Virus record (IMG/VR): IMGVR_UViG_3300034103_000446 | Span: 1 to 64,000 of that record | Origin: a virus | DNA: 64,000 bases | Reading direction: 5' to 3' (one strand) | Part shown: one piece after another, positions 3,072 to 52,670 of the stretch | How positions within the stretch are numbered: position 1 is the stretch's first letter | Layout of the letters: each line of letters opens with the position of its first letter | Position numbers and translations under genes: made by a program | The notes under the pieces: generated by a model | Databases searched by the model: none | What the model was told of the DNA's origin: nothing | The model's input: only the letters and a program-made list of their open reading frames with translations

Positions 3072-3079
3072 TATTTATC
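3072..3079 (-). promoter_or_regulatory. Late-type promoter box GATAAATA before i-spanin
   Basis: The minus strand reads GATAAATA with 5 bp to the ATG at 3066. With T4 spacing, transcription would begin at or next to the A of the start codon. Confidence 0.45.
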
Positions 3080-4337
3080 TCATGCTATCTAAAGTAGGAT
3101 TAACTTCTGCTAGTTTTTGATTTCGATTAGAGTCTAAAATATCGTTAAATTTAAAAAATCTAGACAAGTTTTCTTTATGTTCTACTTCTTCCAAGCATCT
3201 ATTTTTAACTGTAGTCATTATTCCGTAGAAATTACTGTCTCGGGGTTTAATGTCGTTTTTCATCCAAGTTTCTATTTTCTCCCAGCATCGTTGTTTATAG
3301 TCTATTGGCAAGTAGTAAAAATCTAAGTAATCTGGCTCCATTAAAATGATGGGGGTTATGTTTATGTCAACCTTGTATTTGTCACTGATTGAATCAAAGT
3401 AGTCAAACAAGTCGGTAATGTATTCCAAATTAGGCTTATAGATTACAGGAGTAGGCCGTACCAACAAATTAGTAAGTCCCATAGATACTAGTTTAGTCAA
3501 AGTATTGTCAATTTGACTCCATTTGCTAGGGTATCTTAGATACTCTTGCATAGATCCATATCCGTCTATACTACACATAAATCGTATTTGTTTGAAGTGT
3601 GGTAGCAAATCATAGAACTCTTTCCTAGTATTGGTCATGTTGGAATTAAACACTATGCTGATGTTCTTACTAACTCCGGCACCAATCATCTTCTGTAAGA
3701 TAACAAGATTGTTTTGAATGATAGTAGGTTCACCGCCATTCATATAATATGACTGGATGTTTCCTAACTGTGAGTCTATGTTTTTCTCAAATACATCAGT
3801 TGTGTACCAATCGTTTAGATTTTTAGTAGAGATGTTGTGGTAATTTCCTATATCAGATATAGGAAACAGTTTGATAACTTCTTTGTTGAATTGGCTACTA
3901 GCTTCTGGATAACAACTTCTACATGCCAAGTTGCACATATTTCCAAATCGGATGTCAAAATATTCTACAGTGTTGTCGATGGCCCCGTCATTGGTAGTAG
4001 AAGATATTATTTTCTTTAGTATAGGAATTTGTTTTGTGTATCCTTCGTTATTCCAATTTCTATAACTCTTGCCACCGTACTTTTCAGTATCATAGCATTT
4101 CTGACATCCTTTGATTGGTTTACCTTCAATCATATCTTTTCTGATTCTTTTTAAATCAGTTGAATTTACGATATTAGGCAGTTCATCATATCCCAAGTTT
4201 AACTTAGTACCATCTTCCTTATGCATGAACTCATCAGACACACAGCATAATCTAACAGTACCATCAGTGTGCGTGGATATATTCATCCATGGCAGCACAC
4301 AAAAACTATTGTTGTTTAAAATATCTAATAACTTCAT
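3075..4337 (-). CDS. Twitch-domain radical SAM protein
   Basis: About 420 residues. The start at 4337 is preferred because paralogues begin 12-16 residues before the same FCxLPW element; an in-frame ATG at 4361 is possible. FCVLPWMNI with a following RLCC forms an N-terminal cysteine patch, and a GCQKCY pair follows. The radical SAM cluster motif CNLACRSC (CxxxCxxC) sits at about residues 135-142, and a YYMNGGEPT glycine motif binds SAM. These proteins use a [4Fe-4S] cluster to make a 5'-deoxyadenosyl radical; the substrate is unknown. It overlaps an aminotransferase gene, so sugar or peptide modification is plausible. Confidence 0.85.
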   Translation of the reverse strand: MKLLDILNNNSFCVLPWMNISTHTDGTVRLCCVSDEFMHKEDGTKLNLGYDELPNIVNSTDLKRIRKDMIEGKPIKGCQKCYDTEKYGGKSYRNWNNEGYTKQIPILKKIISSTTNDGAIDNTVEYFDIRFGNMCNLACRSCYPEASSQFNKEVIKLFPISDIGNYHNISTKNLNDWYTTDVFEKNIDSQLGNIQSYYMNGGEPTIIQNNLVILQKMIGAGVSKNISIVFNSNMTNTRKEFYDLLPHFKQIRFMCSIDGYGSMQEYLRYPSKWSQIDNTLTKLVSMGLTNLLVRPTPVIYKPNLEYITDLFDYFDSISDKYKVDINITPIILMEPDYLDFYYLPIDYKQRCWEKIETWMKNDIKPRDSNFYGIMTTVKNRCLEEVEHKENLSRFFKFNDILDSNRNQKLAEVNPTLDSMR

Positions 4338-5370
4338 CACCAATAAACTCAACTTCCTCATCAGTCAATTCGGGATATATAGGTAAACTAATGACACCTC
4401 TACTGAGCAGTACACTTGTACTTATCATATCTGGTTTTGCTAAATCTTTTGCAGAAGGTAAATCTCCTAGAACATATTCATAGTGTCTCTTGCAGTCAAT
4501 TCCATTCAGCATTAAATGCGTAAAAAGTGAATTGCGATCCGGCAAATACATTACAAATTTTTGATGTGCGTGGGGATCCTTTGTATCACTAAGACAGGTT
4601 AGCGGTAGATCCTTAAAAGACTGGCACCAAAATTTAGCAATCTCTTTTCTTCTGGTTTGCCATTCGTCTATATATTTTACTCTAACTAGAAGATGAGCAC
4701 AATCTAGCTCACTCATTCGTGAATTAGTTCCAACATCATGAAAGTATGGCTTGCAATTGTCTCTGTAGCTTGATGCATATAGATATAACTTTTCATCATT
4801 GGTTACGATAGCACCACCGTTACCACTGCTGTTCAAATTTTTAGTAGGATCAAAACTGATTGCCATGCCACTACCTACATTGCCGCCGGCTTCTAACCAG
4901 TGTTGTGCTCCGTCAACTATAACGCCATAACTATCTTCATATCTTACATCTGACCATGGCCTTCGGCCCGCAAAGCCCATGACACAATCATATATTCCAC
5001 CTACTCTAGACTCATGAGAAATGATACCGTTTTTGTCAGTGTCTGCTAATTCAACATCCCAACCTGCAGTTAAAAATGCATTAAGTGTTGCAGGATAGGT
5101 TAGGTTGGGGATGCGAACTTTGGGATTTCCATCCATAGTTTCATTATGCTTAATCTTTTTCCATCGTGCAATTATTTCAAGTGCTTGAGTACCACTATGT
5201 ACCGTTATAGCATATTTAGTCTTAGTCTTATGTTTCAACCATTCTTCAAACGAACGAGTGTAGTGACCACCGACTAATTGACCGTCTTTTAAAGCACGGT
5301 GAGTTGCATCTAGCAACTCTTCCCCGATGTTCTTATACTGTCTTGCTAGACCGAAGTGAGTGATTTTCAT
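4306..5370 (-). CDS. DegT/DnrJ/EryC1-family PLP aminotransferase
   Basis: This 354-residue enzyme has full family length. An N-terminal GQLVGGHYTRSFEEWL element corresponds to the family GxxxxGxxxxxFE region, and VHSGTQALEI is the PLP-phosphate loop. The aspartate in VDGAQHW stacks on the cofactor. FDPTKNLNSSGNGGAIVTND contains the lysine expected to form the Schiff base. Members aminate keto-sugars bound to nucleotides, which fits the epimerase gene just upstream. The 5' end overlaps a small gene by 38 bp. The sugar product is not predictable. Confidence 0.92.
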   Translation of the reverse strand: MKITHFGLARQYKNIGEELLDATHRALKDGQLVGGHYTRSFEEWLKHKTKTKYAITVHSGTQALEIIARWKKIKHNETMDGNPKVRIPNLTYPATLNAFLTAGWDVELADTDKNGIISHESRVGGIYDCVMGFAGRRPWSDVRYEDSYGVIVDGAQHWLEAGGNVGSGMAISFDPTKNLNSSGNGGAIVTNDEKLYLYASSYRDNCKPYFHDVGTNSRMSELDCAHLLVRVKYIDEWQTRRKEIAKFWCQSFKDLPLTCLSDTKDPHAHQKFVMYLPDRNSLFTHLMLNGIDCKRHYEYVLGDLPSAKDLAKPDMISTSVLLSRGVISLPIYPELTDEEVEFIGDEVIRYFKQQ

Positions 5371-5542
5371 TTTTTGCCCATTCTATATAGCCGCCGTTAG
5401 TAACAGACCACGGGCAATATTGTTCCCATAACACTGTTGATTGTTCAGGATTTTCCTTCATCAACTTATCCACTATGACTCTAGATTTATATCCATTTAA
5501 AGTCCAGTCATGTGTTTTTAATGCAGTTTCTAATTCATTCAT
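5333..5542 (-). CDS. Small conserved phage-type protein (69 aa)
   Basis: The product begins MNELETALKTHDW, a short helical opening that recurs in small phage proteins, and ends with a basic segment. There is no membrane segment or signal peptide. It starts one base after the epimerase stop codon and overlaps the aminotransferase start by 38 bp, so it is part of the same operon. Function is unknown. Confidence 0.6.
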   Translation of the reverse strand: MNELETALKTHDWTLNGYKSRVIVDKLMKENPEQSTVLWEQYCPWSVTNGGYIEWAKNENHSLRSSKTV

Positions 5543-5543
5543 T

Positions 5544-6509
5544 TTATATTCTATTCTGCCAGTAACTTGATGTACTCAGCCATTCATAGTACTTTTGAAA
5601 TCCTTCTTCAACATCTACTTTCGGATCATAACCGAAGTCTCTACGGGCAGCATCAATGTTTAGTGCACCTCGACTTGGGAAGTCAGCGTCTTTGTCTCTA
5701 ACTTCAATAGATCCTTTACCGACAATCTTCACAGCTAGTTGTGCCGCATCAAGCAGACTCCTACTGTGGCTCTTGGTAATGTTGTATGTCTTATTGTCGG
5801 TATTGGAACTTAAACTCGCGGCAACGATTCCATCGGCGGCGTCTTCAACGTAGGTGAAATCGAGTGTTTCTCCTGCTCCATTAACCTTAAGAGTAGCACC
5901 GCGCATTGCTGTGAGCATGAATTTTGCAATAACTCTATCTTCCACATCAAGCGGGCCGTATACAGCACTTGGCCGAATAATAGTATGATTAAAACAGCCT
6001 CTGCGAGTGTAATCTTTAACCAGGTGTTCCCCAGTGAGCTTGAGTATTCCATATTGTCCTTGTGGCTTACAATTATAATCTTCTGTCACATCGTTGGTAA
6101 AGTCACCATAGACCATACTTGAACTGATGTATACAAATTTCTTTACGTTATTCTTTTTACTCATTTCACATAGGTTGAGTAGACCTTCACTCATTACACG
6201 ACTGCCCCATGGTGGGTTAGCATTGACCACTTTCTGTCTAGGGAAGCTAGCCATGTGAATGACGATATCAAATTTATTTGCCGCAAACAACCATTCAATG
6301 TTTCCAGCACTACAAATATCAAACTTAAAATTTTGATATGTCTTTATTTTCTTTTTTCGTTCAGACACCAGATAGTTGACTTCTTCTTGTGGAATAATTC
6401 CGTAGTTTGTTTGGGTGTCAACTATAACAACATCATGTTGTAGTTGCTCTAATTTAGATACGACATGATGTCCTATCAATCCCATGCCGCCGGTTACTAA
6501 TATTTTCAT
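5544..6509 (-). CDS. NAD-dependent epimerase/dehydratase (extended SDR)
   Basis: This 321-residue enzyme shows the Rossmann motif TGGMGLIG at residues 7-14, an acidic residue after the second strand (VDTQ), the SSS catalytic stretch in YISSSMVYG, and the YxxxK pair in QYGILK. The NGAGETLDFTYVEDAADG segment is typical of the nucleotide-sugar-binding half. It resembles UDP-glucose/dTDP-glucose 4-epimerases and 4,6-dehydratases, so it probably acts on a nucleotide sugar ahead of the DegT aminotransferase encoded just downstream. The exact reaction is uncertain. Its start overlaps the next upstream gene by ATGA. Confidence 0.9.
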   Translation of the reverse strand: MKILVTGGMGLIGHHVVSKLEQLQHDVVIVDTQTNYGIIPQEEVNYLVSERKKKIKTYQNFKFDICSAGNIEWLFAANKFDIVIHMASFPRQKVVNANPPWGSRVMSEGLLNLCEMSKKNNVKKFVYISSSMVYGDFTNDVTEDYNCKPQGQYGILKLTGEHLVKDYTRRGCFNHTIIRPSAVYGPLDVEDRVIAKFMLTAMRGATLKVNGAGETLDFTYVEDAADGIVAASLSSNTDNKTYNITKSHSRSLLDAAQLAVKIVGKGSIEVRDKDADFPSRGALNIDAARRDFGYDPKVDVEEGFQKYYEWLSTSSYWQNRI

Positions 6510-19389: not shown

Positions 19390-19998
19390 TTATACTCCGC
19401 CACAATATTTTTCAGGATCAGGCATGCCTAAACATTTCCTACGGTCATATTTGTAATCTTTGTATTTACCGAATTTATCCACATAGAACAAGAACGCTTG
19501 TAATTGTCTCTCACCCAGGTATTCATTTCTCCAATGGGGTAAAACACTCCCTTTATAAACAATAAGATCACCGGGATTTAATAAAATAGGAAATCTATTT
19601 CCTTTTAAATCATCAAACCAAATTTCCCAAGGCTCAGGGTCTATTGAAATATTAATAGTCGTAGCAAATTCACAACCTGGTCTGTCTTTGTGTTCTGCCA
19701 TTGTAGCACCGTTGTAATATATTCTAGCATAGCTAAAACTACTATATAATTGTTTGCCAATTACTTTTTCCATTAATGGTAGTAATTTGATACTCAGTGC
19801 TTCAACACATGGAGGGGCATACCTGGAATAAGAATTAGTAACTTGTCCATCTGAAAATATAAATTTATTTTCTTCATCTTGTTTGTTTTTGGCGTAAGTT
19901 ACTTTTTTCAATAACTCCATTTCTATGTCTACAAGTTCTAACACTTCAGGATGTAATGCACCCCTAATAATTTCATAATGATTGTCTTGAAATGACAT
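19390..19998 (-). CDS. 2OG-Fe(II) oxygenase
   Basis: The 202-residue protein has YYNGATMAEHKDRPGCEF (HxD ligands), ATTINISIDPEPWEIWF, GDLIVYKGSVLPHWRNEY (distal His) and RQLQAFLFYVD. These match phage-encoded dioxygenases of the P4Hc/cupin-like group. A tail rich in Y, D, K and C (YDRRKCLGMPDPEKYCGG) follows. It starts right after the tmRNA gene end, with TTTAGGAAAAAAA before the ATG, and reads into the next oxygenase gene. The substrate is unknown. Confidence 0.85.
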   Translation of the reverse strand: MSFQDNHYEIIRGALHPEVLELVDIEMELLKKVTYAKNKQDEENKFIFSDGQVTNSYSRYAPPCVEALSIKLLPLMEKVIGKQLYSSFSYARIYYNGATMAEHKDRPGCEFATTINISIDPEPWEIWFDDLKGNRFPILLNPGDLIVYKGSVLPHWRNEYLGERQLQAFLFYVDKFGKYKDYKYDRRKCLGMPDPEKYCGGV

Positions 19999-20015
19999 TT
20001 TTTTTCCTAAATTAG

Positions 20016-20341
20016 GGTAGGTTATTCTGTTACGAGGAAACCTACCGAAACCCTAAGCGGCCGCTTAGGCTGCTAAAGCGAACTGTTCGTCGTTTGCATT
20101 TACGTTTTTTGCTTCTTCGACCAGGTTACCCCAATCCTAACGGCTTCTACATTGCCGGACTGTCCATTTCAATACTCTTGACCCAATCGATCCTGTGTCA
20201 GGCCCATCAAAAACATACTAACCGCTCTGTTGCTACTGTATGCCTACAGTTTGTATCCATTCGTCTAATATGCTTATGGTGGACCTGGCGGGCACTGCCC
20301 CCGCGTCTTGAATCCTTTTCTGTCTACTTCATACAGTCTTA
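20016..20341 (-). ncRNA. ssrA: Circularly permuted (two-piece) tmRNA gene
   Basis: On the minus strand the acceptor piece comes first (about 20341-20277) and ends in an encoded CCA: T-arm stem GCGGG/CCCGC, then CCAGGTCCACCA. A 71-nt intervening segment follows (20276-20206). The coding piece starts GGGCCTGACACAGGAT at 20205. Its first seven bases pair with CAGGTCC, including a G3-U wobble, the alanine identity mark. The tag frame (20097-20065) encodes ANDEQFALAA and a stop. P2 pairs ACAGTC (20163-20158) with GACTGT (20338-20333). A later stem GGTAGGTT/AACCTACC (20046-20016) looks like a pseudoknot arm. The T-loop (GGCAGTG) is atypical. This 347-bp gap has no protein gene. Confidence 0.9.
20065..20097 (-). 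other. tmRNA tag reading frame (ANDEQFALAA-stop)
   Basis: Ten codons from the resume codon GCA give ANDEQFALAA, then TAA. The ALAA end is the degron seen by ClpXP/ClpAP in proteobacteria. The stop codon lies inside an 18-bp perfect palindrome (20051-20069). Confidence 0.92.
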
Positions 20342-20345
20342 ACTT

Positions 20346-20570
20346 TTATCTACACACCTGTCTATGTTGATACACAGGACGATGATAGATATCATACCCA
20401 ATCACTCTTTTGGTAGAGTGACATTGCAACGGTCTTGGTGCAGGTTGTGAGTATACTGAACCCATAACTGCGGCGCCGATTATTGCACCGGTCAATGCCG
20501 CGTTTTGTTGAGGTGTAGCACACCCAACAAGACTACCCAAAATAACAACAGCACCAATAAAACGTTTCAT
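20346..20570 (-). CDS. Small lipoprotein with glycine-zipper segment
   Basis: The 74-residue product has a signal peptide ending in lipobox SLVGC. A glycine-zipper-like stretch (LTGAIIGAAVMGSV) follows, and a basic, histidine/tyrosine-rich C-terminus (YDIYHRPVYQHRQVCR). It resembles small glycine-zipper outer-membrane lipoproteins of proteobacteria. It lies 9 bp behind a 37-residue membrane peptide gene and immediately upstream of the tmRNA acceptor piece, which may share the transcript. Confidence 0.75.
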   Translation of the reverse strand: MKRFIGAVVILGSLVGCATPQQNAALTGAIIGAAVMGSVYSQPAPRPLQCHSTKRVIGYDIYHRPVYQHRQVCR

Positions 20571-20579
20571 ATACGCTCC

Positions 20580-20693
20580 TTACATTAACAAACCATATGC
20601 AATGCACCAAAGTTCAAGCCCTAACTTGTAGGCTACATATAAGCCCATTAGTGCTAGTAATCCCTTAAGTGCTAAAGCTCTATTCATATTCAT
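20580..20693 (-). CDS. Small membrane peptide (37 aa)
   Basis: ATG at 20693 is preceded by AGAAAGGTG, a good ribosome site. The chain begins MNMNRALALKG and is mostly hydrophobic (LLALMGLYVAYKLGLELW), so a single short membrane segment is likely. A CATAAATA box lies 18 bp upstream. The 9-bp spacing to the lipoprotein gene suggests one operon. Function is unknown. Confidence 0.6.
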   Translation of the reverse strand: MNMNRALALKGLLALMGLYVAYKLGLELWCIAYGLLM

Positions 20694-21751: not shown

Positions 21752-22799
21752 AGAATTGCAACATTTCTTCTTCATTATGTAATGAGCAAAGAAGGTGATC
21801 TACTTCTTCGCCTGTCTTAGTATAGTGAGCTAATATTTCTTTTACAAGGTCAGGTTTAAGGTTTCGATCATAAACTATTTCTCTTACCCTATTTTTATTG
21901 TGTAGTAGTTTATCAGAAATCTTATGTGTTATAAATGGTAACTCAGACAACGGAATCTCACATAGTCGTTTGTAATTGTCAACTAGCATTTCATATCTGA
22001 TATCTTCATCCGTAACATCATCAAACGAATAGTTAAAGATTTCATCATATAATACAAAACCTAAATCAACTAACATCTTATGATATCCCTGTCTTGATGC
22101 AACTAAAAAAGGCTTTCCTGCACATAAAGGCATGATTGTTTTTTCACTTATAAAATAGGATCTATCTGTAGTTTCACTAACTAACTGACAAAATGCTTTT
22201 TTATGTACATCGGTGACTGCAAACATTTGCGAGTGTGAATTTACTGTGAACTTTTCATGGTCGACCTCTAGAGGTGTAAAGTTAAAGTGTTTCCAGTTAT
22301 ATGTTCTCCAAGCTTCTTGTGCATAGCCAGAATACACTTCACTATCATGTATAGAAACTTTGCCGTGCTTCAATATATTATGTTTTGCCAATTGATCTAT
22401 AACCCTACAACGATGAGACTTTGGTCTGTGATTAAAATTAAAATAATGATGTGTGTACTCAGCAGGACCAAGAGGATTGATAAAGATACCAGTGCTGTTG
22501 CTTCGTATGGCATTAGTGTATGTTCTGCTAAACCAAGCTGTAGCCCAATATGTCACTACTATATTGTCAATCTGAACTGGGAAATCTTTTTCAGCAGCAC
22601 CAACGATAACATGTATGGGCCTACCTATGCTCTTGCAATGTTCTTGCAACAACTTCCAATGTATTGGTTCGTGGTTGTACCATTCCCATTCATTTTGACA
22701 GAATATTATTATCTTATCCCATTCCTCATTGAGCACACGATGATAAAATTCTATGAATTTATTATCCCCGGACCATTGATTGTGCGTGATATATTTCAT
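21741..22799 (-). CDS. Putative GT-B-like glycosyltransferase paralogue
   Basis: This 352-residue protein is a tandem paralogue of the preceding downstream gene: it starts MKYITHNQWSGDNKFIEFYH, has FCQNEWEWYNHEP, PKSHRCRVIDQLAKHNIL and FISEKTIMPLCAGKPFLVAS, then LGFVLYDEIFNYSFDDVTDE. The ATG overlaps the end of the giant repeat gene by ATGA. The two paralogues plus the giant gene form one translational unit. The reaction is not established; a glycosyl transfer role is inferred. Confidence 0.7.
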   Translation of the reverse strand: MKYITHNQWSGDNKFIEFYHRVLNEEWDKIIIFCQNEWEWYNHEPIHWKLLQEHCKSIGRPIHVIVGAAEKDFPVQIDNIVVTYWATAWFSRTYTNAIRSNSTGIFINPLGPAEYTHHYFNFNHRPKSHRCRVIDQLAKHNILKHGKVSIHDSEVYSGYAQEAWRTYNWKHFNFTPLEVDHEKFTVNSHSQMFAVTDVHKKAFCQLVSETTDRSYFISEKTIMPLCAGKPFLVASRQGYHKMLVDLGFVLYDEIFNYSFDDVTDEDIRYEMLVDNYKRLCEIPLSELPFITHKISDKLLHNKNRVREIVYDRNLKPDLVKEILAHYTKTGEEVDHLLCSLHNEEEMLQFYEW

Positions 22800-25700
22800 T
22801 TGTTAAATCTTTCTCGGAGCCATGCCCACTCATAACTTAATTTTAGTTTGTCTGTCTTGCCATCTACTTCATTGTAATAGTCAATACCGTCTTTGGCTCC
22901 GTCAAGTGAACTCTGTGCAAACTCGCCGGTTGCCTTAGTCAGCCACACTTCTAAGCGGCTGTTGCTAATTTCAGAATCTTCTTTCTTCAATTTGATTACT
23001 TCACGGAATGCAGTACGCCATGTCGACCATTCATCAATATTGTATGTTGCTATACCAGACAATAATTCAATAGTCTCATGCGGACTATCAAGTGTAAAGT
23101 CTAGTCCATATCCTAAGTTATCTAATGTCATTTGCTTGTTGTACGCAATCATGCCCTGATGACCATATATCAAACCATTCACAGGATTCTTAGCTAAGAA
23201 CATATAGTGCTTTGGTATCTGCAATCTATCTGGTTGCCAGTTGAAGTCAAATTTAGTGTTGACTTTCAGTTTAGCAAACACAGTAAACATCCAAGGGGTG
23301 TTGCTTGCTTCTGCTGCCGCATGATATGCTTCAACACGACCATTAACTCCATCTACACGAACAATTCTGTTAGGTAGGCCCTTTGTAGCTTTCAATAGAT
23401 GTTCATAGTTCTCATCCGCACATGCCTCACCGTTACTCAAGAATACGATATCTAATGGGTTACTCTTGGCTAATCGTGATGCAGTCTTGATGTATGGATA
23501 GTCGTACAACTGTGTCTCAACATATTGCTTTGCTTCTTTAGGAACAACAATGCGTGTGCCACCGGTACTAGTAATCAATATGTTCTTTGACTCAATATCC
23601 CACAAGTTCATTGGTTCTTCTTCTACTACTACAATGTCTTTGTTGTCGCTTGTTACAAAAGTTGCATAGGGGAAATCAAAGTCCTGCATTACCGTAGCAA
23701 CATGGCTATCAAAATCAGAAACAATAACAGGAGCTGCCAATCGTTTGGTACGTTGATGCTGATTAAAATTAATCTTGTCATAATCTTTCAATGACTCCAT
23801 GTCCTTTATCAACTCACGTAACTTGTTCACATTGACCAAGAATGTGTCACCAAACTTTTGCTTGTCACTTGGGAATACATGCAACTGCTCTCTAGCAAAT
23901 GGATCACATATGTAAGTGAAGTCAAAACTCTCATAATCACATACTGTGCTTGCTATCCAAATGTAATGTTCTTTCTTCTCAGGAAGTTTAGATATTATAT
24001 TCTTAAAGGTAGTTAGGTAATCAGTATCATAAGGTACAACATTTGCTAAAGGTAAGTTAGGTGTGTTACCGTGATCAATATAGTACACATCGTACAATAC
24101 GTTAGTGGCTTTAGCAGTTCTATCCTTAATAAAGTTAAGGTTGCTCAAATGCTCAATAATCTTGATGTATTTTGTATCAGCAGAAAATGTGTCACGATTA
24201 ACTATAAAGGTTGTACCCCAATGACTCCACTGAGTACCAAACACATGAACCATCTTCATCTGCCAGGGGTTAGGATAGTAGTTGAAATCAAAGTCAGTGT
24301 AATCTAATTCGCTATTCAATATCCAGCACAATTCTGTGGTACTACGATTGATACAACGATTGATAGTATCAACCCAGCTGTTTAGATAACGAGTCTTTTG
24401 AATGTTACCAAATTTAATCTTCAATTCTTCATATCTGTGTGCTGATTCTGGGTTGCCTCTATCAACAAAGAACATGTCTGGTTTGATAAACAACCTAGAC
24501 AAGTAGCCTTCATTCAATGACGCATCTTCTACAAACTTTAAATCTTTCTTACCATCTAGATAAGACCTAGCGTTTACAAAATATGTATGAGTAGTTACTG
24601 AGTCCGGTGATCCAAACACGTGTACGTAGTCAGATTCCCATGCAACATTGATAACTTCTGGTCTCCAATCAAAGTCGAAACCAGTGTAGTCGATGTTCTT
24701 ATTCAATGCCCAGAATACTTCAGAAGAATGTTGATTAATCAAATCTTCTAAAGTAGTTTCGATGTAGTATTCAGGAACAACAACCTGATCAGGGATAGAG
24801 GTTGCTAATTCATTTTCATATGGTTTAGTTATACGTAACTTATATACAATCTCTCCAGTATGACCCGGTGTAACATACTTAGGACCATCCTTATCATCTA
24901 CCATAGTACCAAACTGATACACATACGGTGGTGCTAATTCATCAGGATGCCAGCTAAAGTCAAAATCATTTACAGCAACACCATTGGGGATGACCCAGTT
25001 AGTCTTGTCCTCTTTGCGTTTTGCTCGGATATCATCAACATACTTTATATCAGTTGCTCCGAAAACTTCGTATCTAGGTCCATTTGTCTTTTGATGCTGT
25101 GTGCCAAACTGATAGATGTATGGAGGATCGTTTGGATTAGGGATCCAACTAAAATCAAAACTTTCGGCTTGTATGTTCTTAGGTACTACCCAATTTTTTC
25201 TATTAGGGCTTAGTATTGCAACAATATCTGTCACATATTTTGTTTGCACTGCTCCGGGAACCTTGTATTCAATAGTAGGCATAATTTCAGCAGAATATTG
25301 TTTGTTGCCGAAACGATATATGTATGGTTTCTCAGTGTCATCTGGGTGCCAGCTGTAGTCAAAATCTTTGATATCGTGTTCTATCAATGTAGTGAAATTT
25401 TTCTTATCTTTCAAATGGATAGATTTGATATCACTGCAATACTTAACTGGGGTGTCGCTAGTAGCGCCTTCAGGCACATAGCGAGGGCCACCTGTCTTTT
25501 GCCATTGAGTACCAAACTGATAAATGAATAGTTCATCAGTGTCGTCTGGGTGCCATGAGAAATCAAACACCGATGAGTTTATACTAGGTGGAACAAACCA
25601 ATGCTTCTTAGAAGCTACTGACTTTGCAGTAGATTCTTCTACATATTTTACTTCAGTTGCACCTGATACAGTGTACTTTGGTCCACCTGTCTTTTGATGT

Positions 25701-28700
25701 TGTGTACCAAACTGATAGATATAGGGAGGGTCATTTGGATTTGGTTTCCAACTAAAGTCAAACTGACTTACATCTATTTTGCTCGGTACATCCCATCCAG
25801 TAAGGTCGGTAGCAAGTGTTGCCTTCACATCATTGACATACTTTATCTTTTCAGCATAAGGACTTGAACGATATTCAATCGTAGGCATCACTTCTGCAGG
25901 ATACTGTGTGTTACCAAACACATAGATGAATTCACCGTCAGTGTCATCAGGATGCCATGACCAATCAAACGATGCAACTGATAAGTTGTTTAATACATTA
26001 AATTTACTCTTAGTAGGTAATTTCTTTGATGTGATAACACGAGTATCAATGTACTTGACTGGTGCGCTTCTTTTTGCGCCCGGAGTAACATACCGAGGTC
26101 CGCCTGTCTTCTGCCACTGTGTACCGAACTGATAGATATACGGATCGTCTTCTGCATAAGGGTGCCATGAGAAATCGAAATCAGATTCATCAATGTCAAC
26201 CGGAACTTCCCAGTTAGTTTTGTTAGGCAACGCTTTTGCACTAGGTGAATCCATGTACTTAGTTGCAATTGCGCCATCCATCTTGTATACAGGTCCACCA
26301 CTCAATGCCCATTGAGTAGCAAAATGATAGTTGTACGGAGGGCTAGTACTGTCAGGATGCCAGCTAAAGTCAAAATCAGTTACATCAATGTTCTCAGGTA
26401 ATGTCCACTTGTCATGATCCGGCAATGCTTTTACTTTTTGTGTGGTGACATACTTGACTTCGGTGGCATCGGGAACGATATATCGAGGTCCACCTGTCTT
26501 CTGCCATTGTGTACTGAATTCGTATATGAACGCAGGATCTTTTGGATTGGGTTTCCAACTAAAGTCAAAGCCAGTTGTATCTACACTAGCAGGCACTTCC
26601 CAGTTAGTCATATCAACATCAAGTACAGCAATAACATCAGACACATATTTGATTTGTTTTGCACCCGGAACTTTGTATTCTACAGTAGGCATTATCTCAG
26701 CAGGATGCTGAGTGTTGCCGAACACATAGATATATGGCTCATCGGTTTCATCCGGATGCCACGACCAATCAAACTCTTTAATCTTATAGTTATTGAGTAT
26801 TGCAAAGTTTTTCTTATTCGGTAATCTTTTAGATTTTAAAATACGAGTATCTATATACTTTACAGGGCTAGAAGGAATAACGCCCGGTGTTACATACTTT
26901 GGTCCGCCTGTCTTCTGCCACTGTGTACCGAACTGATAGATGTAGGGCTGATCTTCTACATACGGATGCCATGAGAAATCAAAGTCACTAACATCAACAT
27001 GTTCAGGTACTTCCCAATTGTCTTTGTTCTCCAACGCAATAGCACTTGGTTCTTCCAAGTACTTAGTTTCAACAGCGCCGGGTACAGTGTATATCGGTCC
27101 ACCTGTCAATGCCCATTGAGTAGCAAAGTGATATATGTATGCAGGACTTGTATCATCTGGATGCCAACTAAAATCAAATCCAGTCACATCAATATGAGTA
27201 GGAATAGTCCAGTTGTTCTGATTAGGTAACGCTTTTACTTTTTGAGTTGACACATACTTAACTTCATCAGCACCGGGTACTACGTATCTAGGTCCACCTG
27301 TTTTCTGCCATTGTGTACCGAACTGATAAATGAACGCAGGATCTTTTGGATTAGGTTTCCAGCTAAAGTCAAAATCTGTAGTGTCAATATCATCAGGTAC
27401 TTCCCAGTTAGTCATATCAACATCAAGTACCGCCATGATATTGTTGACATACTTGATTTGCTTTGCGCCAGGAACCACGTATTCTATGGTAGGCATTATT
27501 TCAGCAGGATGTTGATTATTACCAAATACATATATGTAGGGCTCATCAGTTTCATCTGGATGCCAGGTGAAGTCAAACTCTTTAATCTTGTAGTTGTTTA
27601 ATATTGCAAAGTTTTTCTTACTTGGCTTTCTAATAGCCTTTAAAATACGAGTGTCGATATACTTGACAGGACTAGAAGGAATCACTCCAGGTGTTATATA
27701 CTTCGGTCCACCTGTCTTTTGATGTTGTGTGCCGAACTGGTACACATATGGTTGATCTTCTACATATGGATGCCAGCTAAAGTCAAAACTATCTGCATCA
27801 ATCTCATTCGGTACTTTCCAGTTGTCTTTGTTCTCTAACGCAATAGCACTTGGTTCTTCTAAGTACTTTGTCTCGGATGCGCCTGGTACTGTGTACACCG
27901 GTCCGCCAGTCAATGCCCACTGAGTGGCAAAGTGATAGATATAGGGAGGACTTGTATCGTCAGGGTGCCAACTAAAATCAAAGTCAGTAGTATCTACGTA
28001 GCTAGGTACTGTCCAATTATCCTTAGTAGGTAGTGCGGTTACTTGATGTGTTGACACATACTTAACTTCATCGGCGTCAGGTACTACATAACGAGGGCCG
28101 CCTGTCTTTTGATGCTGTGTGCCAAATTGATAAATGAATGCCGGGTCTTTGGGATTAGGTCTCCAACTGAAATCAAAGGTAGATGTATCTGTATTGTCAG
28201 GCACTTCCCAGTTAGTCATATCAACGTCAAGTACAGCAATAACATCAGACACATACTTTATCTGTGTTGCACCAGGTACTACGTACTCAATAGTAGGCAT
28301 AATCTCGGCTGGATGCTGGTTATTACCGAATACATATATGTACGGCTCATCTGTGTCATCTGGATGCCATGACCAATCAAAATCTTTGATTTTGTAATTG
28401 TTTAATATTGCAAAATTCTTCTTGCTAGGTTTTCTGATAGATCGTATGATACGAGTATCAATATACTTAACTGGACTAGAAGGCAGTGATCCAGGGGTTA
28501 AATATCTAGGACCACCTGTCTTTTGATGTTGAGTACCAAACTGATAGATGTAGGGCTGATCTTCTACATATGGATGCCATGAGAAATCAAATGCATCACT
28601 GTCTATATAAGATGGAATTTCCCAATTGTCTTTATTTGGTAATGCGATAGCACTAGGCTCATCTAAGTATTTTGTTTCAACAGCATCAGGACAAGTATAT

Positions 28701-30949
28701 ATCGGTCCACCTGTTAATGCCCACTGAGTAGCAAAGTGATAGATATACGGCGGGCTTGTTCTGTCTGGATGCCATGAGAAATCAAAACCAGTCACATCAC
28801 AATTAACGGGAATAGTCCAGTTACTGTCTGAAACTAATGCTTTTACTTTTTGTGAGTCAACATACTTAACTTCAAATGCGTCCTGCACAATATAACGAGG
28901 ACCGCCTGTTTTCTGCCATTGAGTACCAAACTCATATATAAATGCCGGCTCTTTTGGATTGGGTTTCCAACTAAAGTCAAAACCATCACAATCAATATCG
29001 TCAGGTACTTCCCAGTTAGTCATATCAACATCTAAGGTTGCTATAACATTGTTAACATACTTGATTTGTTTTGCGCCGGGCATTGAGTATTCAATGGTAG
29101 GCATAATTTCTGCTGGATATAGATTGTTTCCAAATACATAGATATATGGCTCATCAGTATCATCTGGATGCCATGACCAATCAAAGTCTTTGATTTTGTA
29201 GTTGTTTAATATTGCAAAGTTTTTCTTATTTGATAGGCGCTTTGCTTTTATAACACGAGTGTCAATATATTTAATAGCACTATTCTTATGAATCCCGGGC
29301 GTTTTATAAATCGGGCCGCCTGTCTTCTGATGCTGTGTACCGAACTGATAAATGTAGGGCTCGTCCTGCGCATATGGATGCCATGAGAAATCAAATGCAT
29401 CACTGTCAATATAATCAGGTACTTCCCAATTGTCTTTATTTGGTAGTGCAATAGCACTTGGATGTTCAACATACTTAATTTCTGTTGCACCTTCCATGTG
29501 GTATATAGGGCCACCAGTTAATGCCCATTGGGTAGCAAAATGATATGTGTATGATGGACTAGTGCTATCAGGATGCCAACTAAAATCAAAGCCAGTTACA
29601 TCACAATTAGTAGGAATAGTCCATCCGTCGGTATTGGCCAATGCTTTGACTTTTTGAAATTCTATGTACTTAACTTCCGTTGCACCTTCGACTACATAAC
29701 GAGGTCCACCTGTTTTCTGCCATTGAGTGCCAAACTCGTATATAAATGCAGGGTCTGCTGGGCTAGGTTCCCAACTAAAATCAAAGCCAGTCGTGTCTAC
29801 ATTAGCAGGCACTTCCCAATTGTCCATGCATGGTTTGCGCTTTGATCTAGCTTCCATGAACTTGTATTCTGTAGCACCTTCTACTACATACTGAATACTA
29901 ACTTTATCTTCAGGCTTGTTCCATTGATTACCCCATGCATAAATGTATGGAGGGGCAGTTGGATTAGGTACCCAACTATAATCAATGCTGTCAGCTTTCT
30001 CTAAATGCTCAAACTTTTCTGCATGGGCGCTTAACTTAGCTTTCATATCATGCAGGTATTTTCTTTCAGTAGCATTTGGCATGTGATACTCAATTGTCGG
30101 CATCACTCCGGCTTCGTATTGCTCATTACCAAATACATATATGAAGTCAGGTTCTCTAGGATCAGGTCTCCAGCAGAAATCAAAAGTTGTTTTATCTACA
30201 TCATGTATGATATCCCACTGATCCCATTCAGGCAACACCGGAACAAGTTCATTCATGTATTTCTTTTCAGTTGCTCCCGGTACATGATATTCTAGTGTTG
30301 CTTTCAGCTTACCATCTACATATTTGTTACCCCATACATATATGAATGGAGGATCCATTGGATCAGGTCTCCAACTCATATCCCATCGGATCCTGTCTAC
30401 TTTTTGAACCTCAACGATGCTATTCCAATTAGGCAATAACTCTACTATAGTGTTCATGTATTTTATATCAGTTGCTCCTGGCACGTGATATTCTAAACAG
30501 GTGCTTAATTCTGCAGGTGCATACTTAGAACCCCATCTATAAATGAATGGAGGGTCTGTTGGATCAGGATGCCAACTAAAGTCCCACTTTTCTACGTTGA
30601 TGTTTTCTAGTATCTTCCAATTGTCAGATACTATGTTCTTTCTTTTGAGAGGCTCAACATCACACCGATACACAATAACATCACTCTTGTTATTTGCGCA
30701 CAGCCACGTGCCGCTATCTTTTTGATGGAGACTAGGCCACACATTGTTGTGATCTTCTGCCCAAACATCACTGTCAGGTAAAAACTCAAAATCAAAATCC
30801 CAATCAAAGTTAGTATAGTCACAGAATTCGTTGATGATCCAAAAGTGTTCTGTTGTTGCTTTTTTTCTAGCGTCTACTAAATTTTTAGCAGGTTGTTCTT
30901 TTGGATGGACATTCGGCTTAGTGCCGAAATAAAAAACATCTCTTAGCAT
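22796..30949 (-). CDS. Giant 2717-aa modular repeat protein with C-terminal GT-A-like region
   Basis: An N-terminal unit (FYFGTKPNVHPKEQP, then FWIINEFCDYTNFDWDF) is followed by about 29 modules of 60-70 residues. Each module carries FDFSWxPD, a PPYIYxFG strand and a GATExKYxE end. Three degenerate modules follow (about residues 1950-2330). Residues about 2495-2717 resemble a phage GT-A glycosyltransferase domain (VRVDGVNGRVEAYHAAAE, FDFNWQPDR, NPVNGLIYGHQGMIAYNK). Modules 5-24 are organised as five copies of an A-B-C-D set. The modules look like copies of the strand pair that follows the DxD site of the GT domain. No signal peptide, no membrane segment. Carbohydrate binding is the best guess. 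Confidence 0.85.
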   Translation of the reverse strand: MLRDVFYFGTKPNVHPKEQPAKNLVDARKKATTEHFWIINEFCDYTNFDWDFDFEFLPDSDVWAEDHNNVWPSLHQKDSGTWLCANNKSDVIVYRCDVEPLKRKNIVSDNWKILENINVEKWDFSWHPDPTDPPFIYRWGSKYAPAELSTCLEYHVPGATDIKYMNTIVELLPNWNSIVEVQKVDRIRWDMSWRPDPMDPPFIYVWGNKYVDGKLKATLEYHVPGATEKKYMNELVPVLPEWDQWDIIHDVDKTTFDFCWRPDPREPDFIYVFGNEQYEAGVMPTIEYHMPNATERKYLHDMKAKLSAHAEKFEHLEKADSIDYSWVPNPTAPPYIYAWGNQWNKPEDKVSIQYVVEGATEYKFMEARSKRKPCMDNWEVPANVDTTGFDFSWEPSPADPAFIYEFGTQWQKTGGPRYVVEGATEVKYIEFQKVKALANTDGWTIPTNCDVTGFDFSWHPDSTSPSYTYHFATQWALTGGPIYHMEGATEIKYVEHPSAIALPNKDNWEVPDYIDSDAFDFSWHPYAQDEPYIYQFGTQHQKTGGPIYKTPGIHKNSAIKYIDTRVIKAKRLSNKKNFAILNNYKIKDFDWSWHPDDTDEPYIYVFGNNLYPAEIMPTIEYSMPGAKQIKYVNNVIATLDVDMTNWEVPDDIDCDGFDFSWKPNPKEPAFIYEFGTQWQKTGGPRYIVQDAFEVKYVDSQKVKALVSDSNWTIPVNCDVTGFDFSWHPDRTSPPYIYHFATQWALTGGPIYTCPDAVETKYLDEPSAIALPNKDNWEIPSYIDSDAFDFSWHPYVEDQPYIYQFGTQHQKTGGPRYLTPGSLPSSPVKYIDTRIIRSIRKPSKKNFAILNNYKIKDFDWSWHPDDTDEPYIYVFGNNQHPAEIMPTIEYVVPGATQIKYVSDVIAVLDVDMTNWEVPDNTDTSTFDFSWRPNPKDPAFIYQFGTQHQKTGGPRYVVPDADEVKYVSTHQVTALPTKDNWTVPSYVDTTDFDFSWHPDDTSPPYIYHFATQWALTGGPVYTVPGASETKYLEEPSAIALENKDNWKVPNEIDADSFDFSWHPYVEDQPYVYQFGTQHQKTGGPKYITPGVIPSSPVKYIDTRILKAIRKPSKKNFAILNNYKIKEFDFTWHPDETDEPYIYVFGNNQHPAEIMPTIEYVVPGAKQIKYVNNIMAVLDVDMTNWEVPDDIDTTDFDFSWKPNPKDPAFIYQFGTQWQKTGGPRYVVPGADEVKYVSTQKVKALPNQNNWTIPTHIDVTGFDFSWHPDDTSPAYIYHFATQWALTGGPIYTVPGAVETKYLEEPSAIALENKDNWEVPEHVDVSDFDFSWHPYVEDQPYIYQFGTQWQKTGGPKYVTPGVIPSSPVKYIDTRILKSKRLPNKKNFAILNNYKIKEFDWSWHPDETDEPYIYVFGNTQHPAEIMPTVEYKVPGAKQIKYVSDVIAVLDVDMTNWEVPASVDTTGFDFSWKPNPKDPAFIYEFSTQWQKTGGPRYIVPDATEVKYVTTQKVKALPDHDKWTLPENIDVTDFDFSWHPDSTSPPYNYHFATQWALSGGPVYKMDGAIATKYMDSPSAKALPNKTNWEVPVDIDESDFDFSWHPYAEDDPYIYQFGTQWQKTGGPRYVTPGAKRSAPVKYIDTRVITSKKLPTKSKFNVLNNLSVASFDWSWHPDDTDGEFIYVFGNTQYPAEVMPTIEYRSSPYAEKIKYVNDVKATLATDLTGWDVPSKIDVSQFDFSWKPNPNDPPYIYQFGTQHQKTGGPKYTVSGATEVKYVEESTAKSVASKKHWFVPPSINSSVFDFSWHPDDTDELFIYQFGTQWQKTGGPRYVPEGATSDTPVKYCSDIKSIHLKDKKNFTTLIEHDIKDFDYSWHPDDTEKPYIYRFGNKQYSAEIMPTIEYKVPGAVQTKYVTDIVAILSPNRKNWVVPKNIQAESFDFSWIPNPNDPPYIYQFGTQHQKTNGPRYEVFGATDIKYVDDIRAKRKEDKTNWVIPNGVAVNDFDFSWHPDELAPPYVYQFGTMVDDKDGPKYVTPGHTGEIVYKLRITKPYENELATSIPDQVVVPEYYIETTLEDLINQHSSEVFWALNKNIDYTGFDFDWRPEVINVAWESDYVHVFGSPDSVTTHTYFVNARSYLDGKKDLKFVEDASLNEGYLSRLFIKPDMFFVDRGNPESAHRYEELKIKFGNIQKTRYLNSWVDTINRCINRSTTELCWILNSELDYTDFDFNYYPNPWQMKMVHVFGTQWSHWGTTFIVNRDTFSADTKYIKIIEHLSNLNFIKDRTAKATNVLYDVYYIDHGNTPNLPLANVVPYDTDYLTTFKNIISKLPEKKEHYIWIASTVCDYESFDFTYICDPFAREQLHVFPSDKQKFGDTFLVNVNKLRELIKDMESLKDYDKINFNQHQRTKRLAAPVIVSDFDSHVATVMQDFDFPYATFVTSDNKDIVVVEEEPMNLWDIESKNILITSTGGTRIVVPKEAKQYVETQLYDYPYIKTASRLAKSNPLDIVFLSNGEACADENYEHLLKATKGLPNRIVRVDGVNGRVEAYHAAAEASNTPWMFTVFAKLKVNTKFDFNWQPDRLQIPKHYMFLAKNPVNGLIYGHQGMIAYNKQMTLDNLGYGLDFTLDSPHETIELLSGIATYNIDEWSTWRTAFREVIKLKKEDSEISNSRLEVWLTKATGEFAQSSLDGAKDGIDYYNEVDGKTDKLKLSYEWAWLRERFNK
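25763..29785 (-). repeat. Higher-order tandem repeat inside the giant gene (5 x about 804 bp)
   Basis: The A-type module starts at 29785, 28981, 28177, 27373 and 26569, four exact steps of 804 bp (268 residues = 4 modules of 67); the fifth copy is 807 bp. B-type modules (FATQWALTGGP) repeat at the same spacing (29524, 28720, 27916, 27112, 26308). DNA copies differ at many synonymous sites while protein is conserved. Confidence 0.9.
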
Positions 30950-32428
30950 TTATGATATCACTTTAACATTGTACAATTTTTCGAATCTATCGGCATCAAG
31001 TCTATCATTGACCATTGGCTCACCTCTGATATTAAGGGAGGTATTTAACAGTATAGGGCATCCAGTCAAGACATACCACTTTTCGAGTAGTTCTCTGACT
31101 CCGCTTCCATCTTTCGGCACAGTTTGAACACGACTAGTCCCGTCATGATGAACGATAGCAGGAAATAAGTCAGGATGCCTGCAACGAGCGATGACTTGCA
31201 TATACCTACTGTCACTCCAATTACGAGGCATGTCAAAATAATTATGAACATGCTCCTCCAAAATAATGGGCGCAAATGGTCTGAATTTTTGTCTGCGTTT
31301 AATTTCATTTACAGTATCCTTTATTGTATCACCTCTGGGGTCTGCAAGCAATGACCTATTACCCAATGCACGTGGACCGAACTCTGCACGACCTGAGGCT
31401 ACACCTACTATTTTAGTCTTAACTAGTTCGTCAATGATACGATTACTGGGATAATTGCCTGGAATGTCATGCCCTAAGAAAGCATCTACCCAGTTCAACT
31501 TCTTACCGTAGCCCAACGCAGCAGCACCTAAACTAGAACCACAGTCACCTGGATTAGGTACTATCCACATATCATTGAAGTAGTCACCTAAGTTTCTATT
31601 TGCTAGACAGTTAAGTGCGACTCCGCCTCCATATACTAAGTTGCGACTCTTGCCTAACATACGGGCTTTTGCCATGACGGTGTTAATTAGATATTCTACT
31701 AATGCCTGGGCACTGGCGGCAACGTCCATTTCATTAGCGCCTTCTAAAAAGTTTTCAGGGACACCAATGTGTAGGTTTTCTTTGAAATCTATTTTGGTGC
31801 TATTTTCTAACAACTTAGATTCAATGGTATTAAAATGTATAGGTTTACCGTACGCAGCCATACCCATTAGAATGTATTCTTCATCTAGTGGACGTAGACC
31901 AACGTGCTGAGTCATTGCACTATAATATAAACCAATACTGTGTGGATATTTTTTAGTCCAAAGTTTCTTGTATTGGGCATAGCCATTTTCATCGTACCAA
32001 GCATCCCATATAGAGATACAATCGATCTCACCGATAGCATCAATTACTACAACCGTAGCATCATTGTATGGACTTGTTTGAAAGCCGGCAGCGGCATGAC
32101 TTAAATGATGATTGTGTGTAACGACTTTTGGGTTGTTAAACACATCGAGAATAGATTTACCTATACGCATTTTAGCGGTACGTAAATCTAATTTTTGTCC
32201 TGCTCGTAATTGTCGTAATGCAGTCATCCAAGGACGTTCATAATAATGAATTTCACATTCATCAGTTAGAGTCTTGGCTGCGTCTATTGCCAATCCAGAG
32301 CATAATTCAGCGTCATGCTTTTGCTTGCTATAACGCTCACTATGACCTGCAAATAAAATGTTGCCATTCGAATCCACAACAGAGATACCGGCGTCATGGA
32401 AGCCGTTGCTTATTCCTACGTAGTTCAT
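30950..32428 (-). CDS. NodU/CmcH-family carbamoyltransferase
   Basis: This 492-residue enzyme has the N-terminal Kae1-like domain: GISNGFHDAGISVVD, metal site HNHHLSHAAAGF, and IDAIGE. The YrdC-like C-terminal domain includes YGGGVALNCLANRN, GDCGSSLGAAALGYG and SGRAEFGPRALGNRSLLADP. It transfers carbamoyl from carbamoyl phosphate to a hydroxyl, as in nodulation factor, cephamycin and tobramycin pathways. It lies 1 bp before the giant repeat gene. Likely it decorates a sugar made by neighbouring genes. Length is typical of, or slightly below, the family. Confidence 0.93.
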   Translation of the reverse strand: MNYVGISNGFHDAGISVVDSNGNILFAGHSERYSKQKHDAELCSGLAIDAAKTLTDECEIHYYERPWMTALRQLRAGQKLDLRTAKMRIGKSILDVFNNPKVVTHNHHLSHAAAGFQTSPYNDATVVVIDAIGEIDCISIWDAWYDENGYAQYKKLWTKKYPHSIGLYYSAMTQHVGLRPLDEEYILMGMAAYGKPIHFNTIESKLLENSTKIDFKENLHIGVPENFLEGANEMDVAASAQALVEYLINTVMAKARMLGKSRNLVYGGGVALNCLANRNLGDYFNDMWIVPNPGDCGSSLGAAALGYGKKLNWVDAFLGHDIPGNYPSNRIIDELVKTKIVGVASGRAEFGPRALGNRSLLADPRGDTIKDTVNEIKRRQKFRPFAPIILEEHVHNYFDMPRNWSDSRYMQVIARCRHPDLFPAIVHHDGTSRVQTVPKDGSGVRELLEKWYVLTGCPILLNTSLNIRGEPMVNDRLDADRFEKLYNVKVIS

Positions 32429-38213: not shown

Positions 38214-41200
38214 TTAGACTTTAAAGTGATATATACCACAATTTGGATTTTCAACCATTGGGCAGAAGCCCATAAACTTTAATCCACCGCTGGCAGCCCA
38301 TGCAATATAATGTTCTTGATTACTACCAGTAGTAATAAAGATATCAGCACCCGTATTTAAGTATTTTTTGATATTAGCGTAAAAGTCTTGCAATGCTTCA
38401 TATCCTTCATCAACGATTAATCTGCAAGTGTTATCTACACAGTTTAAATGCTCAAGTGATTCAATAAATGCTTGTCTGTCACCACTGTGCGGTGGATTAG
38501 CTACTACCAAATCAAACTTCTCTGTAGTTGGTATTTGTGTAACTTCATTACACACATAGGCACTAATTTTATCTGCTACTTTGTTAGCTGTTGCATTAGC
38601 TAAACAAGATTTTATAGACGGGCTGTGCATGTCAACAAATGCCACTGAGTCTACTTTGTTTTTATCTAGCAAATCATATCCCAGTGGGCCAACTCCAGAG
38701 CACCATTCTAATGCACGACCATAATGTTCTTTTCCTATACGCTCTATTAACGAGTACAATTCCTCTTTAATTTCAAATCCACCACCGTCCATGTGTGTAG
38801 GGTATTCAAGTACAAATCCATTCTCGTATATGCGTGTTTGCTTAGACCAATCTAATTGATTAGGTGAAGATTCTAACGGAATTACTACGGGCTTAACAGT
38901 GTTTATATCTAAGTTAGGTTCTGGTATTGCAACACTAGGTATCACTACAGATAACGGTGCAGGTTGAATTACCGGCAGTTCAATTGGATATACAATTGGC
39001 TGAGGCTTTTCTTGCACAAATATTGGTTTAGCGGCGACTACGTTATTAAACAATTGCTGATAGTTCTTAGTAATTGTAAAATCTTTATTAGAGTGAAAAT
39101 GCTGTTGATTGAATTCAACTATTTCTTTTATTCCAGTTTGCCATACTTCCCAATCGCCGCCGGTGAAGTTATTCAATCGTTTGATTTCTTTAACAATAGC
39201 TTCAAAGCGTAAATCATCATTTTCAATAGTGTCATATGATTCGTCAATATATGGACTAAATGTTTTATACCCTTGCTCACGTAACACACGCAAGCAATAA
39301 GGTCTAGCCATTAATACAAACGGGTGATTTAGTGCAAAGCAACGATATGTTTTTTCAGTTAAGAACAGACTATCTTCTACAAAAGGACGATGCGCTTGAT
39401 CCGGACGATCCTTATCATAGAACAATGTTTCAGTGATTACACTGAAATAACTGTCTTTATAGTATTGCAAATCATCGGGTTGAATGTCCACTGGGTTATG
39501 TCTATCTTCAGTGATATTCAATCGCATAGGAAACATATCTGCATTCTGTCTAATTAATGGAAACTTTTGATCATGCAATAACGGAATCTTTTCTTTAAAA
39601 TCGGTATCGCCCTCAAAACTATACCAGGCCTTATCTACTAGACTCTCATGTAACATACGCTCCAACAATACCATACGATGTTCTCTATTAAGTTTGTTAA
39701 AGCAAGTAAAGTTTTTTCCACGGAATCTAACATCGTACCCACCGATATATTCATATCCCTGTGCATAAGTTGTAGTGATATAATTAAAGAAATGGCAGTT
39801 TAATAACGAAACACGCTTGTTCCAGCCGTTTTTGTCAATTAACTTTTCATACACTTTGTCAGCATCAATTACACCGGTCAATACAATTATGTCTTCTTCT
39901 GGAATAATGTCGTCAACAATGTTAGCAATACGCTGAATTTTGCTTTGTACATGCGGCATAAATGCTTCTGTGGCTGCAAAGAACAAGAACTTAGACTTGC
40001 CGTTCTTATGTGCAAGACGCATTTCTTTAACAATGTCTTGTGTAGGTCTACAAACAAACATTGTTTCAAAGTTAATTGTAGCATCAATTAAATGAATATT
40101 GTGCTCATATTCTTTAATGGCCGGAAACATCTCAAGTACTTGACGCATCATTGTTTCTGTAGTAGTAGACGGAACCTCATATTTATGTTTAGAACGAGTA
40201 TCACCGTAATGTATGATTTCACCACTGTGTTGTTGGCTAGTCATCTTGCGCCATGGATCAATAACTACAGCAGCAGGATCTTTGAACTGTAGACGTTCGA
40301 CCCAAGACTCCCAATATCCAATTAGAAACACATGAGTCCAGTCTTCACGCAGGTCATGATCCTCAGTATTTGGATCGTAGTAGTTTAAGTTGCCACCATG
40401 CTTTTCAATATTGTAACCTACTAACATACTTGCAGAACCGTTAATATAACTCACCCCCGGTTTGTATGCTTTACCAATGATGGTTACATTACGACCATTC
40501 TCTAGGCAACGTAGGGCCATGCGCTCGGCTTGTACTTCACGTGCGGCCATGATTGAATCAAACAAATCATAACCTAAGTCTAGTCTGTCTGCTAGATAGC
40601 GTAGTGCAATGTTATCTCTTGGGTGACATGCACCTGCATCTCCTAGTCCGGCTTTCATGTATGCCGGACCCATGATGCGATGTGTACTCTTAGCCAATGC
40701 TTGTGTAACTACATCTACGTTGATATTGCCATTGGTCTCTGCAACGTCTTGCACCATGTTGACAAGTGCTAGCTTAGTGCTGATAAATGTGTTGTAGAAG
40801 ATTTTGATAGACTCAGCTTCATCCCATGTGCCAACTTCATAGCGTGGCTCGTTCTGCATAAACACTTTATAAAAGTCAATTAATTCACTAGCATCACCAG
40901 TAAGGCTACCATCATCTGTGCCAATAATTACCATTTCTGGATTTACCATGTCCCATTTTACGGTGCCCATAGCAATAAGGTAAGGGTTGTAAATGAATCT
41001 TGCATTAGTGATACAAGGCTCTAGGATGCTACGAACTGTTCCGGGTAGCACTGTACTGATGAGGACAACTAATTGACTTTTAGTAACATGTTTATTGACC
41101 TCTTTTAAAATGTCAGTGACTATTGTATAGTCAAAATCTTTGTTTGGAAGATGGCTTGTTGGAGTTTCACCACCATAGATAGGATCATGTGGTGTGGGTG

Positions 41201-52665: not shown

Positions 52666-52670
52666 CTTGA

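Follow-up and report, generated by a model that had tools for sequence, protein, structure and literature searches.

Phage-borne two-piece (circularly permuted) tmRNAs are already known: in 2022 one was published from phage Melnitz, together with 53 two-piece cases, mainly aquatic, in a set of 18,146 phage genomes (PMC9004378), and the permuted models of alpha, beta and cyanobacterial type are merged in a tmRNA database paper of 2025 (PMC11915505). In the segments between the two pieces the latter notes a tRNA gene and a repeat, and a text search of that paper turned up no reference to an open reading frame there (PMC11915505).

A further example is the locus studied here, which lies in a stretch of 64,000 nucleotides of viral DNA (the window) taken from a linear IMG/VR record of 103,062 bases (G000). 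The gene is best explained as an intact, very probably working two-piece tmRNA that would use the SmpB of its host (probability about 0.92). An earlier note, made from the letters of the window, had described it almost to the base. The rarity which that note attached to phage tmRNAs did not hold, given the published cases, Melnitz and the 53 among 18,146 genomes (PMC9004378), and an exact T-arm 21-mer that is common in IMG/VR.

The checks suggested in the earlier note, Infernal with the Rfam models and ARAGORN, both find a permuted tmRNA. ARAGORN run on the window reports one (tmRNA*) on the minus strand at 19974-20369 with the tag ANDEQFALAA. Among the Rfam models, tmRNA_permuted (RF04321) matches 20338-20065 with 114.1 bits (E 1.7e-21; cut-off 47 bits) and alpha_tmRNA (RF01849) matches 20391-20016 with 79.9 bits (cut-off 50 bits), whereas beta_tmRNA (RF01850) stays at 75.2 bits, under its cut-off of 84, so that the locus falls outside the beta lineage model. 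Assignment to the permuted family RF04321 is borne out by the order of the pieces, seven of seven acceptor-stem pairs including G3-U70, an open tag frame and covariation in P2. The parts of the gene are the following:

20338-20016, minus strand: whole tmRNA gene, circularly permuted (ARAGORN and Rfam).
20277-20338, minus strand: acceptor piece, 5' end at about 20338, encoded CCA at 20279-20277 (RF04321 alignment).
20288-20304, minus strand: T-arm GCGGG-GGCAGUG-CCCGC with a T-loop of alphaproteobacterial type, aligned to the alpha_tmRNA consensus CCGGGGGCgGUACCCGG.
20281-20287, minus strand: 3' strand of the acceptor stem, CAGGUCC, holding U70 of G3-U70; its partner is 20205-20199.
20206-20276, minus strand: intervening spacer of 71 nt, between CCA and G1.
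20199-20205, minus strand: 5' strand of the acceptor stem, GGGCCUG; G1 is 20205, where RNase P is expected to cut to give the coding piece its 5' end.
20180-20186, minus strand: P2 strand UUGGGUC, partner of GAUUCAA at 20314-20308 in the acceptor piece.
20158-20163, minus strand: distal P2 strand ACAGUC, partner of GACUGU at 20338-20333, the 5' end of the acceptor piece.
20065-20097, minus strand: tag frame ANDEQFALAA-UAA with a GCA resume codon; tag at 20097-20068, stop at 20067-20065.
20016-20064, minus strand: 3' domain of the coding piece, with a terminal hairpin GGUAGG...CGUAACAGAAUAA...CCUACC aligned to the 3' end of alpha_tmRNA (RF01849).

The acceptor piece with its encoded CCA therefore precedes the coding piece across a 71-nt spacer, both in the sequence and in the RF04321 alignment, and the acceptor stem closes across the pieces with G3-U, as had been proposed. 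The fold of the window gene has a z-score of -2.64.

Relatives were gathered by scanning IMG/VR with the T-arm 21-mer and a tag 22-mer, and two further scans added loci; the sample is thus non-random, since exact DNA patterns, four in all, defined it and one of these calls for a ribosome-binding site. A near-identical acceptor piece occurs in at least about 100 IMG/VR contigs. The locus scan, built on T-arm, acceptor stem and coding piece, recovered at least 113 loci, a count in which the virus of the window appears repeatedly (as the window itself, as L001 and as L018), and G3-U70 is present in 113 of 113. L018 was set aside as independent evidence, being the same virus as the window (100% identity over 6,135 nt). 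Since at least six of the seven acceptor-stem pairs were required by the scan, the level of pairing is partly imposed, but the kind of change is not: the stem takes four main forms in which both sides change (GGGCCUG/CAGGUCC, GGGGAUG/CAUCUCC, GGGGGCG/CGCCUCC and GGGGGUG/CACCUCC).

Among 27 distinct relatives or combinations, P1 is paired in 189 of 189 cells, with compensatory changes at pairs 4-6, and the T-stem in 135/135 cells (27 distinct relatives). P2a is paired in 173 of 189 cells (shuffle mean 133, maximum 152) and distal P2 (P2d) in 108 of 120 (mean 96.8, maximum 105); for each of the three inter-piece helices none of 1000 shuffles reaches the observed value, a figure which, as the shuffles ignore relatedness, serves as a guide rather than as a strict probability. 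Because P1 and P2 join the two pieces, their covariation supports a two-piece RNA and not merely conserved DNA, and it confirms the P2 pairing between pieces that had been read from the window. The two outcomes named beforehand as fatal to that reading, no permuted model above threshold and no covariation of the stems, were both looked for and neither was found. Of the 112 loci put through both scans ARAGORN detects 22, so published counts of phage two-piece tmRNAs that rest on ARAGORN are probably low. The records of two relatives, L004 and L022 (G001 and G013), carry two RF04321 matches each, at least one of them weak, possibly a second or partial tmRNA.

The carrier is supported as a large T4-like myophage, and the gene as phage-borne, by the proteins predicted on the 103-kb record, as the earlier note had supposed for a phage: they include a baseplate wedge protein (with about 31% identity to its counterparts in very large myophages that infect Agrobacterium, Sinorhizobium and enterobacteria), a late sigma factor and an SbcC/SbcD-like nuclease. 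No tRNA genes were found in the window or in the rest of the record. Very long open reading frames also occur on the phage record, of 2717 aa at 22796-30949 in the window and of at least 5672 aa at 2-17017 in L002. Elsewhere in the window (51394-55312, 3075-6509, 30950-32428 and 38214-41375) radical-SAM/SPASM proteins, sugar-modifying enzymes, a carbamoyltransferase and a dehydrogenase-methyltransferase fusion are encoded, which were read as a large phage-borne gene set for glycans or small molecules.

The T4-like genes and the covariation bear on the idea that the locus is a passive remnant of a host ssrA taken up by imprecise prophage excision, an origin weighed by the authors of the Melnitz study (PMC9004378); in its favour, ssrA is a common integration site. 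A full-length, covarying tmRNA whose lineage extends over more than 100 contigs largely refutes it; the recognised genes are those of a T4-like myophage, and a T-arm 29-mer had no match among the contigs searched from 84,980 species genomes, all of which makes a remnant extremely unlikely. A cellular source of the gene was likewise rejected, on the missing cellular match of the T-arm 29-mer and on a tag 31-mer that matches one contig only, from a metagenome-assembled genome (MAG); this contig has seven tRNA genes in a cluster and appears to derive from a phage. In a class-wide survey around the tag-bearing MAG, 5 of 369 genomes scored over the cut-off, too few for placing the host. Among 50,697 phage isolate records no close relative of the window tmRNA was found at blastn sensitivity, the similarity consisting of partial matches around the T-arm only.

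No result points to the betaproteobacterial phage proposed in the earlier note: the alpha model is over its cut-off (79.9 vs 50 bits) and the beta model under (75.2 vs 84), and both the T-loop and the 3' end align to the alpha model. The T-loop had also been called atypical, which is correct against the canonical TTCRANY and wrong against the alpha_tmRNA consensus, which it matches. The ancestry may be mosaic, with an alphaproteobacterial lineage signal in the RNA (T-loop, 3' end) and a 10-residue tag shared with phage tmRNAs that give beta-type hits.

The immediate neighbours of the gene are as follows:

20346-20570, minus strand: lipoprotein-like open reading frame of 74 aa, upstream; 7 nt separate its stop codon from the acceptor piece.
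20580-20693, minus strand: open reading frame for a 37-aa membrane-peptide-like product, homologous to the open reading frame in the tmRNA spacer of L012 (58% identity, E 2e-12).
19390-19998, minus strand: downstream gene of PHROG 2954, annotated 'ferrochelatase', with no Pfam match.

No sigma-70-like promoter for the tmRNA was found on the minus strand, and the gene is probably co-transcribed with the 74-aa open reading frame. Boxes resembling TTGACA and TATAAT stand just upstream in about half of the distinct relatives, as judged by eye; in L019, L042, L072, L084, L091, L138 and others they are near consensus and placed for a start at the acceptor piece, while the window copy is without them.

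A working tmRNA is indicated by a tag frame that is open, an alanine determinant that never varies and inter-piece helices that are maintained. Ribosome rescue is its likely function, and redirection of degradation, which the earlier note also raised, a possible one. In the proposed mechanism the transcript would probably be read through from the upstream lipoprotein-like gene, the acceptor stem would close between the pieces, prolonged by a helix of the two spacer ends, and cleavage by host enzymes behind CCA and ahead of G1 (20205) would remove the spacer and leave a tmRNA of two pieces held together through P1 and P2. Charging through G3-U70 would then fall to host alanyl-tRNA synthetase, and host SmpB, its compatibility being assumed, would carry the molecule to stalled ribosomes, where ANDEQFALAA would be added and mark the product for host proteases, their compatibility also being assumed. 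The most likely benefit to the phage would be that ribosomes held on cleaved or non-stop messages are set free in the course of infection.

An smpB gene was not found in the 103-kb record of the window, a linear fragment whose missing sequence could hold one, nor in about 30 related phage records (20 and 16 further, a few of them overlapping), four of them named isolates; Melnitz, CcrPW, XM05 and Cp1R7A-A1 are among the 16. If the tmRNA works, host SmpB must therefore be used. The same absence would suit a decoy, in which the phage tmRNA competes with that of the host for SmpB or alanyl-tRNA synthetase and blocks rescue and tagging, as is reported for the tag-less tmRNA of phage DS6A; the DS6A form inhibits the endogenous tmRNA when expressed in E. 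coli (PMC11915505). DS6A, however, has no tag frame, whereas the frame is open here and the tag ends are kept in nearly all relatives, whose tags begin with AND or ANE and mostly end in LAA or MAA. The altered ends LMVA, ALVA and LAANA do occur in a few relatives. On balance a decoy appears very unlikely for the window gene. Altered ends were seen as ANDEQFLMVA in L024, L032, L053 and L066 and as ANDSQFALVA in L138, L175 and L243, and altered tags also in L073 (ANDSQFLLAANA), L078 (ANDSQYLVAANA) and L087 (ANDSQFLQAVNA); tags without AA after a hydrophobic residue should be recognised differently by proteases.

In the window the ends of the spacer form a helix (AAGCAUAUUAG/UUAGUAUGUUU, 20275-20265 with 20221-20211) that prolongs the acceptor stem, and the spacer interior holds a hairpin, ACUGUA-GGCA-UACAGU. 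A 17-codon open reading frame in it was rejected as a gene, having no ribosome-binding site and no independent relative; the window spacer does not belong to the gene-carrying variant described below and looks non-coding. Spacers were compared at 122 loci; 73 of them are distinct, with lengths of 23-382 nt. In almost all of the 73 the ends pair, typically over 8-14 bp, from 0-2 nt after CCA to 4-6 nt before G1, the exceptions being L006, L012, L014 and L100, which pair no better than shuffled spacers. The last four bases are TGAT in 48 of 73, TAAT in 17 and AGGT in 4; the group of L023, L024 and L085 encodes CCT instead of CCA in the acceptor piece, and there the spacer ends in AGGT, a change that matches.

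A ribosome-binding site followed by an open reading frame of at least 20 codons occurs in 26 of the 73 distinct spacers, a fraction that is indicative only as the sample was chosen by patterns, and 19 of the 26 frames stop exactly one base before G1. When spacer interiors were shuffled with the ends kept, 2.3 coding spacers were obtained on average and 6 at most. The frames belong to many unrelated families of 20-122 codons (loci include L116, L172, L087, L105, L124, L014, L019, L118, L133, L170, L238, L086 and L176); one is DUF2061 (Pfam E 3.5e-20) and another, outside the 26 and with no clear ribosome-binding site, DUF6356 (E 7e-10). Five homologous pairs, with dN/dS of 0.149, 0.116, 0.104, 0.221 and 0.127 and an excess of silent changes (P 4e-4, 1.5e-5, 4e-8, 0.016 and 4e-5, respectively), show the signature of purifying selection. 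The pair L118/L133 was dropped from this comparison as too similar (dN/dS 1.4 on 7 changes).

In cultured Melnitz (L245, MZ577097 44800-46900), whose tmRNA is annotated as a single SsrA feature, the spacer contains GGAGAAGTAT-ATG and a 54-codon open reading frame whose last 42 nt lie in the coding piece (peptide MFKWLSKTRLVVITRDYF...). Homologues inside a permuted tmRNA were found at 18 IMG/VR loci (L253-L270, marine), one of them protein-identical; against the Melnitz frame dN/dS is 0.12-0.33 over the first 37 codons, where computable, and three homologues have an in-frame insertion of 24 nt. On these sequence comparisons, the presence of protein genes in the spacers of relatives and of Melnitz is well supported.

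It could be argued that the tmRNA halves serve chiefly as RNA-processing bookends for a small spacer message, ribosome rescue being secondary. The 26 spacers with a ribosome-binding site and the dN/dS of 0.10-0.22 in the five pairs agree with this, but the window spacer has no convincing open reading frame, tag and tmRNA structure are kept whether the spacer is coding or not, many relatives without a spacer frame keep the tmRNA, and none was noted with a spacer gene kept and the tag frame decayed. This explanation, too, appears very unlikely. The halves that flank spacer frames stay intact; orphan acceptor pieces upstream of a protein gene, suggested by ARAGORN negatives, were rejected, as the coding piece was found past the open reading frame in nearly all.

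Alongside a working tmRNA, there may be a composite gene, for which we see about even odds: the spacer would be a slot for varied small protein genes, with the ribosome-binding site hidden in the helix by which the acceptor stem is prolonged, and tmRNA processing would free or destroy the message. In predicted precursor folds L116 and L118 have the ribosome-binding site AAGGA paired, as is most of it in L014, and we infer that expression of spacer genes may be coupled to tmRNA processing. The slot genes appear to move, since homologues of spacer frames also stand just upstream of tmRNAs in the window and in L201, where the upstream frame is homologous to the spacer frame of L176 (76%). Among 40 viral loci with a DUF2061 homologue, just two, both already known, have it inside a detected tmRNA spacer. 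The window copy has an empty slot with the same helix and a slot-gene homologue just upstream.

Phage two-piece tmRNAs thus form a large, structurally supported group mostly overlooked by ARAGORN, and why phages without smpB keep a tmRNA becomes a testable question. If the spacer genes are translated, a segment of the tmRNA precursor regarded as waste would serve as a message, and a single transcript would link processing of the tmRNA with expression of an mRNA; as Melnitz is in culture, the idea can be tested directly. A gene-carrying spacer in this lineage is a thing for which we could not find a description in the open-access literature searched, which is weak evidence of absence. As the window copy has the precursor helix but no gene, while its lineage has gene-carrying spacers, the novelty lies in the lineage and not in the window copy.

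Compared with known systems, the window gene shares with that of the Methylophilales phage Melnitz (MZ577097; PMC9004378; RF04321 113.4 bits, RF01849 106.7 bits) a phage-borne permuted tmRNA of alpha type, spacer ends able to form an acceptor-prolonging helix and no smpB found; Melnitz differs in its tag (ANDNYVPVDYALAA), its acceptor stem (GGGGGCG/CGCCUCC), a 142-nt spacer with an unannotated open reading frame and a glutamine riboswitch at the 3' end, features that are all absent from the window. The Erythrobacter phages XM05 and vB_EliS-L02, Caulobacter phage CcrPW and Mesorhizobium phage Cp1R7A-A1 (L246-L249) also carry permuted tmRNAs of alpha type, unannotated in their GenBank records, but with other, mostly longer tags and with similarity at the nucleotide level confined to the surroundings of the T-arm and CCA. 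The betaproteobacterial two-piece tmRNA (RF01850) has the same order of pieces, and ANDEQFALAA recurs in L017, L030 and L048, phage tmRNAs that give hits of beta type, whereas the T-loop of the window gene differs and its score is below that model's cut-off. With the alphaproteobacterial two-piece tmRNA (RF01849) it shares the order of pieces, the T-loop GGC.GU and a 3'-terminal hairpin with AACAGAA, and it departs from this model in its 10-residue tag and in pseudoknot and 3' parts that are shortened, as seen from the gaps in the alignment.
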